Part shown: piece after piece, positions 9,478 through 17,674 of the stretch
How positions within the stretch are numbered: position 1 is the first letter of the stretch
Layout of the letters: every line of letters begins with the position of its first letter
Assembly (NCBI RefSeq): GCF_026262505.1
Contig: NC_067203.1
Span: 18,705,411-18,769,410, forward strand
Length of the DNA: 64,000 nucleotides
From: Trichomonas vaginalis G3
Lineage: Eukaryota > Parabasalia > Trichomonadida > Trichomonadidae
Direction: 5' to 3'
The notes under the pieces: generated by a model
The model's database searches: none
Told to the model about the DNA's origin: nothing
What the model saw: only the letters and a program-made list of their open reading frames with translations
Program-made: the position numbers and the translations under genes

Positions 9478-12400
9478 TCAGAACTTCAACTTACGAATAA
9501 AGCTTGTTTTAGTCGTTATTGAGAAGTTAAACTTCTCCTCAAAGCAAGGTTGACATGACTTACATAAGTCAAATCCAATCTCTTGACCATCATGAAGTGC
9601 TTTGTAAAGTTTCATTAAACTGAACTCAGAGTCTTTGTCATATGTTCCTTGCGGAACCATTAAACCTTTATCTTCATCATAGAAACACTGAACAGAGTCA
9701 GGAAACATTTCATTTGCTGTTAAAGCAAGAACGTCTTGTTTTACACCTTTACAACGTGCATGAAATGCAACTTCATTTAAATCATTCGTGAGTAAGTCTA
9801 TGTAAGTCTTCTTTCCACAAAATATTGACTTGTATGCTAAACTTTGTTTTCCAGGTGTTATTTCTGCGAAGTCAGAATGAAATTGACCAAGGTTTTTACC
9901 AATGAGAACTCTTCCATAACGTTTCTCAAACTCTTCAGCTAAACGAGGGATATCTTCATTGTAGAGATGCATACTGTCCGTATCGCTATAAAAGATGTCC
10001 ATTCCTAAGTCCTCAGCAGTACAGAATACTTCACACATTATTCTCTTCGACATAGACAGAATGTTAACACCAAGTGGACAGAAGTTAAAGTGTCTGCAAA
10101 TGCTTTTCGTTAGCTTGAAATAGTTTTATCTGAACCATCCAAACCTTCGAACTTCACTATATGGTTGTAGTTTCTGATGGCATATCTTATAGCATCTTTG
10201 TCATTTACTATGGTTATTTTTGACTCAATAGGAGATAGAATAGTTTTGCCATAAATACTGTTCAGAATGAGTTTTATATTTTCTTGCAAAGGATTTCCTT
10301 CTTTCTTATACTTTAACCTTAACTCAAACAACTTCTTTACTTCATCTCTTATTCTAATATCTCTGTTTCCATCGTAATAGTATCCTTGCAACACTTCACA
10401 TTTGACACCTTGATATTTTATGAGGTCTTGTAATGTTATATGGTCAACATACATTAAACAGCAAGTGTTTGAACTTCTGGGAACGTTAAGTTCTGGATTT
10501 AGTTCAGGGTCACAAACTATTAAAGGAAAGTGTCTATGTATTCCAATCTCTGTTATCTTAATGAGAACAAAGAAGCCAGACATAAACTTTTCACCAATGG
10601 GTTCCTTTTGGTCGTCATCGAATAAATGTCTCATGAGATACTCTGTGCTTAACATTTCTTTCTTCATAACCTTTGGAATTCCTTCTAAAGTATAAAGTCT
10701 CGCAATAGCTGAGGGATATAATGAAACAGCGTCGAAATCAGCAATGAGTTTCTTTTCGCTCTTTTGTTTCATGTTATCTGACAACATACATCTTCCACCT
10801 TGAATGCATCTCGAAATAAACTCTCTTGGTTTATTTGAGAGGTCATATAAATTTCCATTCGGGAAGTACACTCTGTTCTCAAATAATTTGTTAGCAATTG
10901 AACAAATGCTAACGTAGTCATAAACGTTTAAATCAAATTCTTTTAATAAGTCATTTCTGAACTTTACAAATCCTTCTCTTAAAATTCTTACATCTTGTTT
11001 GCAATAGAATGTGCTATACTTTTCTAAGTCGAAGTGGTTCTCATCTATTCTGCAGTTTTCGATTAAATCTATGTTTTTCATGAATGTATCCGCATCCTGG
11101 ATAAACTTACACGCTTCAGAAATGACACCAGTTCTGTTGTCATTTGCTAACAAAACACTGCTGTAGTAGTTGTATGGAAATACTCTTTCGGTCCTGTTTG
11201 TAAGTTAAACATAGCAGGAAATAGTTTAAGCTTCTTATTTATAACACTGTAAGAGTCTTTTATAATAATTGCCCTTCCTTTATATAAGCCAGTTATTTGC
11301 ATTGTTCGTGAACCTTTAATGATGGGAGTTCCTTTCACTTCTGTCATGTGTCTTAAGATGAAGTTTATGTCATAACTGAGGTTATGGAAATATATTAAAC
11401 TCTTGTCAGGAAGTCGCTCCAAAAATTCTGTTGCACAGTTCTGACCCCAAATGCTTTCACTCACTGAACCATCTTCACTGTCATAACAAATGTTAAAGGC
11501 TTTATGAACTCCATCAGTACTGCACTCAAAGTCAGCAAAGAAAACGTGCTCAGGAATGAACTTGCACTTATTTTTATTTACTTCTTTTGACTCGGCTTTC
11601 TTCTTCAGTTGTACACAATACTTTGGAGCATATGTCAAATCTTTAAATGGTGCAAGGTTCTGTTTATATAAGTCAGTCGTATATGTGAAAAGTTCTCCAT
11701 AAGAAATAGGTTCGAAATATTTGCACACCCACAATGTTTTCATAACATCCCATAACGGTGTTGTTCTATCATAACGAACTACATATTTGTTCTCTCTCTT
11801 TGTATAAATCTTCATCTGTTTCTCAATGTTCATTCCACCACACTCCTTCAAGATTTCTATATAGTTGCGAATGAAATATGTTGTCATTGGTAATCTTTCA
11901 TTTAGCATGTAGTGGTCTTCAACAAGAAGTAAGTCAATAGTTCGAACAGTTTCACATTCTTTTGGTATGTATCTCTTTATTTCATTATGTCTTGAGTCAT
12001 TGAAGTAACCAATGGTAACATTAAATGCTATACCTGTTGCGTCAGAAATTTCTTGTACTTTACTTTGAGGAAAGTCTCTAACACGAATGACTTCTCTCAT
12101 GTGGTCAATAGTTTCTTCATTTACTCCAGCCTGAATGCAAGCATAAACGAAGCAGTTATCTTCTGTCATAAGTGTTGCAGTTCTTTTGTTCAGTTCATTG
12201 AAGATTTGGTAGCGTTCAAGATTTATAGGTAATGTGCAAAGATACTTCCAGAACTGACCGCTTCTCTTCTTATAAAACTTCTTTTCACCATTATCTTTCC
12301 AAAAGCTTTCTATAAGTGCTGGGTTTCCTGTTTGCTTAAGAGCTTCCAAAATGGCTTTCTGGTCATTTGTCAGTGTGCTTTCATCTCTATATGGTCTCTT

Positions 12401-15490: not shown

Positions 15491-16353
15491 ATTTCAAATC
15501 AAATAAAAAATCAAATATAATTTTCCCATCAACTGACTGACTGACCTAAATAAAGTCAAAAGCATATCCCATTAGAATTATATCTGCTGCTATTGGATAC
15601 ACTCTTTCTATTGGAGTAGTGTCATACCCTTTTTGAAATAAAAGAAAGAATGCTGGCAAATTGTGGGATAAGGCAATTATTTCTGCATGTCTACTTGGAC
15701 GAATCATGTGATTCTCGAGAACCCATTCAAGCAAATTGTGAAAATGTGTTCCAACCATCAAATCAACGCAATCGGTAGTCCAATCACACTCTTTCAGACA
15801 TTCATTAATAATATCTGTATTTCTTCCATAAATTGCTTGTTCTAAACATTTATCTGTAATATAATTATCCTCACATATATCATCAGGTAGATTTAATATG
15901 AAATAAAATATATTTGGTGCACCAAAATGGCAACATGCTTCGAGTGGTGTTAAAGTAAAAGAATTAAAAGAAAGCATACCTGGTAAACTATGTTCTACAA
16001 TATAATTTCTAAACTCTTGAATATTATCATTTATTATTATTTTTCCCAAAGTTGAATCTTCCTTAATATTTAATTTATCCGATGGATTTAATAAATGATA
16101 TAGTTGAGCATACAATTCTTTTGATTTGTAATTACATTCAAGTAAAATCTTCAGAATAAAATTTCTAAATGAATATATATTAAAAACTTTATTGTTTCGT
16201 ACCGAAATGGCTAACAAAAAGTGACAGAAAACCTTAAATTGCGCGGCAATTTTAATTAAAAAAATAAACATTAATTTTTGTGATTGATATTATGCATTTT
16301 ATTTATATTATATAAGATTTAAATTTAGGGGAAAAATTGGAAAAAAAATAAGA

Positions 16354-16609
16354 TTGGAAGTCTTTAGGTAAGAAGGAAAGGGCAAGAGATATATAGTGTA
16401 CCTATATACCTCTTGCCCTTTCATTCTAAGTAGAAATGGGAGAAACTTTGTCCGCATCATAAGTTATGCGGACAAAGTTTCTCCGATTTCTAATGGGAAT
16501 TGCAGGCTATGAGGCACTGATATATAATCAGTACCTCATAGCCTACAATTCCCCTTATTAGACTTCCAAACTTTGAGTTAATGTCTTGACATTAACTCAA
16601 AGTTTGGAA
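16354..16609. repeat. Array of four adjacent long hairpins
   Basis: Hairpin 1: 16376-16394 with 16404-16422, one mismatch. Hairpin 2: 16431-16457 with 16466-16492, 27 bp, one mismatch, 8-base loop. Hairpin 3: 16495-16521 with 16527-16553, 27 bp, two mismatches. Hairpin 4: 16564-16584 with 16589-16609, 21 bp perfect, 4-base loop. A further pair, 16354-16363 with 16560-16569, brackets hairpins 1-3. The mismatches of hairpins 1 and 3 are A-C on the plus strand and would be G-U pairs in RNA from the minus strand. The four stems have different sequences, so it is not a simple duplication. Confidence 0.85.
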
Positions 16610-16689
16610 AACTTCTCGTAAGAATCAATCGTCAAAAACCTCGATTGCAGTTATATTCATTGTGTTAAATTTGATTTATTTTGAAATTT

Positions 16690-16959
16690 TTACAAATTAA
16701 ATTTTATATAACATAAAGCGTTATGAATTAGTATTTCCATATGAATTTTATCTCGAAAATAGTAATTCTGTACAGTTATATTTCGGTTAATTTTGGAATT
16801 TCTAGAATACTTTAAGATAGTATGATTATATATAACTCTGCCTTCATGATTATTTTTAGCTTTCGCGCAAATATCAGTTAACTTAACTCCATTATTTGAT
16901 TTTGTGATGGCTTCACAAAGCCAATCAATATCAATCTCTTCTGGAGAATGTCTTCTCAT
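16690..16959 (-). CDS. Small frame inside the nested element, doubtful
   Basis: An 89-codon ATG frame beginning MRRHSPEEIDIDWLCEAI and rich in Asn, Lys and Ile. The first 40 residues look helical and non-random, the rest less so. It lies upstream (minus strand) of the hairpin array, so hairpins would be in its 3' region if transcribed. No family recognised; it may be a remnant of a longer element protein. Confidence 0.35.
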   Translation of the reverse strand: MRRHSPEEIDIDWLCEAITKSNNGVKLTDICAKAKNNHEGRVIYNHTILKYSRNSKINRNITVQNYYFRDKIHMEILIHNALCYIKFNL

Positions 16960-17674
16960 CTAGAATATTTTCAATACTTTACATACAAACATTTTTATTT
17001 CTAAAAAACTTTTTAATTTTTTCTAGGATATATGAATGAAAATAGTTAGAACAAGATTTTGAAGCTCAAAACATTAAAAATTATTAAAGATTTGTATAAT
17101 ATGATTAAAAATGGGAAATAATATGAGGCAATATAAAGGAATATGAATATTAAATAAATATATCTAAATAGAAAGAATCAGAAAAATCAAATTATTGGCG
17201 CCAAAAATGTCACCTTTTTGGTGAGCCATTTCGGTATGAGATATATTAAAAACTTTATATTTATCAAATAAAATAATTTTTACTTTTGCTGCAATTTCTC
17301 CTAAGTTACTCTCATGATTTATTATATATAATTGTTCGATAATATCTAAATAATCTTTATATGGTTTAGAATTTTGAATATTTGTCATCTTTCAACATTT
17401 TTAAAAAAATTAATTATTTCCCAAAAAATATAGAAGACAATTCAACATGAGTCTTTGTTTTTACCCTTGAACATTTTCTCTCATCACTCTATTCAAACTT
17501 CTATCCACCTCCACCAACTGACTGACTGATGACTAACCAAACAATTCAGAAAAAATTCAGAAGAAAAAAACTATCATTTTTTCGAATTTTATTGTTATTT
17601 TTTTCTTACTTCATTCTTACGGGCAATTTCAAAAATTTATAAAATTTTTGAATAGATTCGCTAACCGTTTTATG

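Follow-up and report, generated by a model that had tools for sequence, protein, structure and literature searches.

The window examined here, a stretch of 64,000 nucleotides of the Trichomonas vaginalis G3 genome (contig NC_067203.1), contains a 1,051-bp transposable element of a family designated W. The initial annotation had already recognised a nested element at this place, and W is indeed an insertion, bounded by terminal inverted repeats (TIRs) of about 34 bp and by a perfect 15-bp target-site duplication (TSD) (Table 1). It splits a minus-strand gene matching DUF3447 (window 15546-17388), the parts of which lie at 17244-17388 and from 16192 downward, and the motif CAACTGACTGACTGA occurs at three places round the insertion (window ~15530, 17515 and 18285). 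An open reading frame (ORF) of 89 codons within the element has neither a Pfam match nor a homologue, and the idea that it is the remnant of a transposase was dropped for this reason.

Table 1. Features of the W insertion and of its palindrome array, in window coordinates
Feature	Position	Strand	Remarks
Left target-site duplication TATTAAAAACTTTAT	16178..16192	.	identical to 17244-17258
Non-autonomous IS481EU-type element, family W, 1,051 bp	16193..17243	.	TIRs and TSD; genome copies
Left terminal inverted repeat TGTTTCGTACCGAAATGGC...	16193..16226	+	
Hairpin 1	16371..16427	-	class G, G2; dyad 16399
Hairpin 2	16431..16492	-	class A, A2; dyad 16461.5
Hairpin 3	16495..16553	-	class G, G1; dyad 16524
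Hairpin 4	16564..16609	-	class A, A1; dyad 16586.5; central TT/AA found either way round in different copies
89-codon ORF, no known relative	16690..16959	-	absent from internal-deletion derivatives
Right terminal inverted repeat ...GCCATTTCGGTATGAGATA	17210..17243	-	
Right target-site duplication	17244..17258	.	

The element carries four consecutive long hairpins, as first described, with 26, 27, 27 and 22 opposed positions in stems 1-4. The hairpin stretch has a fold z-score of -20.0 on the plus strand and -23.5 on the minus strand, neither of which is equalled in any of 200 shuffles, and its top palindrome score is 24.5, whereas 500 first-order Markov sequences, each of 1.2 kb, reach no more than 19.0. 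Ten palindromes in the 64-kb window score at least 13; four of them are these hairpins, and the remaining six are solitary. The outer pair that was thought to bracket the first three hairpins exists (16350-16363 with 16560-16573), but it overlaps letters of stem 4 and so competes with that stem. The dyads of the four hairpins are exactly 62.5 bp apart in all three adjacent pairs, a spacing that had escaped notice.

W is present in many copies in the genome, which was searched over 180.9 Mb in 86 contigs (C1-C6 being 20-40 Mb long). Near full-length copies with 98-100% identity, the window copy included, make up 39 of the 40 scored candidates (of 829), and the other one is partial. The TIR pattern is found at 128 + 125 genome places and its reversed control at none, and a direct repeat of at least 12 bp lies near the ends in 29 of 30 fetched copies, the exception being L006; six of the 30 (L023-L027 and L030) represent one common insertion site. 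No autonomous partner with the window TIRs was found among the first 100 listed of the 253 TIR places, leaving out the ORFs of the inserts in L031-L034, four wider TIR pairs that contain insertions into W. Eight W-type TIR pairs less than 1,015 bp apart occur among the 100 listed places (L035-L038, L040, L044, L045 and L048), and the array is kept in all eight. Large internal deletions are seen in seven W copies, which are of the form 1-598+958-1051 (L035, L036, L045 and the second copy in L046) or 1-477+876-1051 (L037 and, twice, L038); the first copy in L046, which is cut by the locus end, is not counted. All seven have lost the ORF and retain the array, six with four hairpins and one with three, and six have end direct repeats of at least 15 bp, which the second L038 copy does not. 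Three W copies (L033, L045 and the first copy in L046) have lost hairpin 2 (element positions 250-299), each with an identical junction.

In the main text of the paper describing them, IS481EU (Banshee) elements are parabasalid DNA transposons with TSDs of about 4, 15 or 25 bp, TNT..AYA termini, TIRs mostly shorter than 50 bp and an IS481-like DDE transposase, and three non-autonomous families are listed there without a partner (PMC10045372). With its 15-bp TSD, TGT..ATA termini and short TIRs, W fits within this superfamily; the DDE transposase is found in relatives of W, not in W itself. TSDs of 15-16 bp and 4 bp, termini, TIRs, enzyme and non-autonomous families with no known partner are all alike in the elements described here and in that main text, from which the palindrome array and its phasing are absent. 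The remark in the initial annotation that no named trichomonad element has this design therefore needs dividing: the element itself fits IS481EU, and its design is one for which the main text of PMC10045372, supplement aside, uses none of the terms hairpin, palindrom-, stem or secondary structure. No title on IS481EU palindrome arrays was among those listed in a literature search, and neither of the two papers using the name IS481EU mentions a hairpin or palindrome in the text covered. The superfamily is known, and what goes beyond the main text of its paper is the array of long palindromes.

Arrays of this kind are found in several other families. Outside the window, elements carry from one to about 20 hairpins, which either follow an IS481-type transposase downstream or make up most of the element; the autonomous families A, C and D have the array on the 3' side of the transposase, and short non-autonomous derivatives retain it too. 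Family A (TIR TGTAATGCATGAAAATTCGG.., 310-aa transposase) has six hairpins and a TSD of about 14-15 bp, as judged by eye in L060 and L057. Family C (L052 and L053, with L051 similar) has two hairpins and, in L053, a TSD of ~15 bp, and family D (L074, L075 and L082) has three; the 323-aa transposase of D is in L081, a locus that itself is without the array. Family B, of ~950 bp, with a 4-bp TSD and five hairpins, was found nested within a W copy, and about 40 near full-length matches of 99-100% identity are listed for it (40 scored of 810 candidates). Its 4-bp TSDs were read by eye within W (L032) and within A (L055, C4:17950311-17954060), where it is inserted near the end of the transposase gene and flanked by ATAC. 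In family F (L054, with L163 and L166), 17 dyads were detected on a ladder of about 20 slots in a fetched stretch that does not reach the left end, and because this array is followed by a B TIR, F is probably the autonomous partner of B. Another element, L228, is composed of at least 14 hairpins in modules repeating at exactly 250 bp, with little else between its ends, which form a 13-bp inverted repeat. Family E is represented by L070, a mosaic locus whose orientation is uncertain. In a family A locus, L068 (C3:3553291-3556935), an inversion with respect to the transposase affects the 3' half and with it the complete array.

At least one pair of palindromes 58-68 bp apart accompanies the transposase in 29 of 32 loci (L051-L082), those without it being L059, L079 and L081; in L054, L055 and L058, it is an inserted non-autonomous element that carries the pairs. 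Near-identical family A copies on C2 account for many of the 32 loci, and therefore families weigh more than loci. Families A, C, D and F have the array and E probably does, and L165, examined for the family of L058, has one A-class-like hairpin and no phased pair. At E <= 0.01, W has no DNA in common with A or with B apart from the array; between W and C there is one 20-bp match elsewhere, and between W and D nothing. The family A match P0001 (100% identity) carries the domain PF00665, and the transposase residues D139, D202 and E238 are invariant in 18 aligned proteins. NF033577 matches the genome in 63 of 63 scored cases (of 1639 candidates), none of which is above the 224-bit cut-off. Of 173 prokaryotic IS481 relatives, 80 were scanned, and the array is present in none of these. 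Single pairs 58-68 bp apart occur in 3/80 of them, as against 3/61 viral-contig loci drawn by the core pattern, and the idea that the array came from prokaryotic IS481 was rejected on these 80. No viral contigs with the transposase were found, and phage and plasmid records gave no match to the element or to the array.

Two classes of palindrome alternate along the arrays, G with the core GAGGTA and A with the core AAACTTTG. The class labels were assigned by eye before the arm-similarity test, in which z exceeds 3 in 31 of 64 comparisons within a class and in 0 of 72 between classes. The order of the hairpins is A1-G1-A2-G2 in W, A1-G1-A2-G2-A1-G1 in A, G2-A1-G1-A2-G2 in B, G-A-G in D and G-A in C, and it alternates among the classable hairpins of F. 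The absence of shared sequence between the four stems, on which the initial annotation had remarked, is hence superficial: once relatives are aligned, stems 1 and 3 fall into one class and stems 2 and 4 into the other. Nor does the view that this is not a duplicated repeat hold, since other families carry the module with hairpins recurring 250 bp further on. The hairpins in the window are one module of about 250 bases, in the order A1-G1-A2-G2, of a transposon-internal palindrome array.

The dyad step of 62.5 bp found in W (3/3 adjacent pairs) recurs in A (5/5), B (4/4) and E (1/1), and in 13 of 16 steps of F, the others of which (189.5, 124.0 and 124.0) amount to about two or three slots. It is 63.0 in C and, twice, 63.5 in D. 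Departures in single copies reach 1.5 bp (L058, 64.0 twice; L055, 62.0; L229, 61.5 twice), and the steps of L228 vary from 62.0 to 63.5, yet they sum to 250. Two G dyads exactly 250 bp apart are found at 754 genome places, overlaps in long arrays being multiply counted, and at none with the reversed pattern as control. There is no enrichment of the loose pattern AGGTA..TACCT (8-22 apart) as such (3383, against 4843 in the reversed control), but only of its 250-bp spacing; by hand count over 100 listed places, nine of the ten intervals below 400 bp between its 25-bp matches are 250 bp and one is 248. Modules of W, A, B and F have identities of 0.49-0.72 when aligned in dyad register and of at most 0.39 when shifted by 1-8. 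The best gapped alignments between family modules insert 2-28 gap letters, and small compensating indels may have occurred between them.

Pairing is maintained between families through changes on both arms. In the G class (11 rows), 93.1% of positions are paired, 19 of 27 pairs have changed on both sides and the covariation score is 0.517, compared with 0.200 in shuffled data; the A class (7/9 rows) has 96.8% paired, 10 of 18 pairs changed on both sides and a score of 0.646, compared with 0.139. C_A and D_A were omitted from the A-class count because a bulge shifts their arms. Neither class score is matched in 500 shuffles, and after sliding by 1-3 columns the scores are 0.02-0.19. When F is included, the paired shares are 91.5% and 94.1%, with one of 19 rows misfiled, as the parity rule places the A-class hairpin of C in the G class. 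The initial annotation had proposed to judge its reading by whether the stems are kept as pairs in other copies, and in the relatives they are.

Within the W family the picture is a different one, as 51 copies show 20 one-sided and no two-sided changes at paired sites. A further 12 changes fall at pairs that are unmatched in the window, and 11 of these create a match. The centre of hairpin 4 reads TT in 24 of the 51 copies, AA in 23 and otherwise in four, and this presence of the loop in both orientations about equally often is a DNA-level event. In an alignment of 30 copies, the two orientations form all four combinations with sites 16213, 16332 and 16772, and only three with sites 16554 and 16770; recombination between copies, besides repeated inversion, could be the source of the four combinations. 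Loop flips of hairpins 1-3 were not seen within the W family, and hairpin or loop inversions also occur in A (L060 versus L057) and C (L052 versus L053). From the loop inversions and the uncompensated stem changes it follows that the hairpin DNA forms or acts as a template, and that the arms are not quickly repaired to match each other.

These observations bear on the possibility that the palindromes are passive, a tandem satellite trapped in the elements, with its symmetry kept by hairpin-templated repair and with no function for the element. Such an origin would agree with the inversions, in which the arms pair or template each other as DNA, and with the capacity of arrays to collapse between identical hairpins. 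An example of the latter is L039 (C4:14939300-14945000), where tandem units of ~2.5 kb combine a W fragment with a B element, the array of the latter being reduced to one hairpin, the pattern expected from recombination between identical first and last hairpins. It is nevertheless unlikely, because 20 one-sided against no two-sided changes mean that repair is not fast, and because alternating classes, fixed spacing and occurrence in several families that are 28-51% different are unexpected for a neutral satellite.

Structured RNA, small-RNA precursors and a recombination or replication structure had been offered as explanations of the hairpins, and the third fits best, at the level of DNA. A transposase-sense transcript might instead fold into hairpins that are diced or bind protein, for which speak fold scores of both strands well beyond those of shuffles, with the minus strand ahead of the plus strand, and the ~34-nt small RNAs reported to be tied to gene and transposon silencing in T. 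vaginalis (PMC7845603). The three wobble-type mismatches of stems 1 and 3 are, as first noted, all A-C on the plus strand and G-U on the minus strand (3:0). However, the argument for RNA drawn from them fails when widened, as the G-U:A-C ratio is 9:5 over 23 hairpins in transposase orientation, a count in which W and B are oriented by hairpin order, several near-identical A hairpins are included and E is excluded. New stem changes in the 51 W copies are divided 6:5 between the two types, and a wobble bias as proof of RNA was rejected on both counts. Matches in Rfam are all below curated scores, the best having 33 bits where 82 are required, so that a known RNA family or microRNA precursor was rejected as well. 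In addition, the array persists in non-autonomous copies, even though an RNA would be able to work in trans, and an RNA has no need of a fixed spacing between hairpin centres, all of which makes this reading improbable. If the array did act as RNA, this genome, which has a small-RNA pathway, would contain a very abundant source of hairpins.

The strict spacing suggests that the array works as a DNA structure, not as RNA, mainly because 62.5 bp corresponds to six turns of B-DNA at 10.42 bp. With 6.0 turns per step, the phased dyads would all face one side of the helix, where they may be held by a regular protein scaffold, made of the transposase or, by analogy with BIMEs, of a host architectural or topology protein; alternatively, the palindromes might be extruded as cruciforms. 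Either arrangement could help synapsis, replication or spread, and non-autonomous copies would retain the array because it cannot be supplied in trans. With about even confidence, the array can be regarded as a module of IS481EU-type transposons that acts in cis as DNA and aids one of these processes. The phasing, the 250-bp module period, the covariation and the flipping centre of hairpin 4 all agree with this, as do the limitation of the DNA shared with A and B to the array, its survival in all seven internal-deletion copies and the existence of L228. On the other hand, the equal steps may descend from tandem duplication of a 125-bp unit, not from selection, some copies are off 62.5 bp, and 3/32 transposase loci lack a phased pair. 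L045 lacks hairpin 2 despite its 16-bp TSD, and L048 has lost part of hairpin 3. No excess of AA/TT phasing at 10.3-10.5 bp over block shuffles was found in W, A, B or D. In F, AA/TT power is high, but equally so in the upstream flank, and helically phased A-tracts (curved DNA) were rejected. A transcription boundary or insulator that shields the element from neighbouring genes would suit the location of the array 3' of the transposase ORF in A, C and D, but elements without a transposase (W, B and L228) retain the array too, and this function is very unlikely.

Most likely, then, the array is a cis-acting DNA platform that formally resembles bacterial BIME/REP arrays. BIMEs have been reported to bind IHF and DNA gyrase, and REPs DNA polymerase I (PMC2817692, PMC3116915). 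As far as these sources describe them, BIME/REP sequences with RAYT are likewise regularly spaced, alternating palindromes in many copies and linked to a transposase. They differ in being bacterial, in alternating the orientations of one palindrome, where two sequence classes alternate here, and in lying outside DDE elements bounded by TIRs and TSDs, inside which the present arrays are found; the linked enzyme is a DDE transposase of the IS481 type and not a tyrosine (RAYT) transposase. REPs are also shorter, with a reported 20-40 bp (PMC3733652) compared with palindromes of about 57-66 bp here. A more far-reaching and still doubtful proposal is that IS481EU elements have as their framework a lattice of two alternating palindromes in helical phase, a eukaryotic counterpart of BIMEs that would be read as DNA by the transposase or by a host topology or architectural protein, and that the ends together with this lattice make up the smallest mobile unit.

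Accounts of DDE transposons usually deal with the ends and the enzyme, whereas here an internal structural module is shared between families and persists where the transposase is missing. Should this module act in cis, it would represent a novel type of signal for transposition or propagation. MITE-derived microRNAs come from a single hairpin formed by the two ends of the element, and DNA hairpins serve as cis signals of mobile DNA at the ends of IS200/IS605 and in integron attC sites. In these two systems and in Helitrons, as far as the latter are described, one or few hairpins lie at an end or a recombination site, in contrast to the internal arrays of up to ~20 hairpins associated here with a DDE enzyme. 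The 3' hairpin of Helitrons is likewise a DNA hairpin acting as a cis signal (PMC4778049), and the hairpins of Made1/mir-548 likewise lie in short non-autonomous DNA transposons (PMC1784062), unlike which the elements described here have many internal palindromes on a fixed lattice.

The hundreds of places with a 250-bp period are a natural test bed for palindrome stability and for loop inversion versus arm mutation. Among the places listed, W-type TIRs are dense on C4 at 13.7-17.5 Mb, and dense small RNAs from two strands have been reported for T. vaginalis chromosome IV at 14-24 Mb (PMC7845603). Elsewhere in the window, a minus-strand ORF at 10110-11153 has a match to DNA polymerase B (PF03175) and is Maverick/polinton-like.
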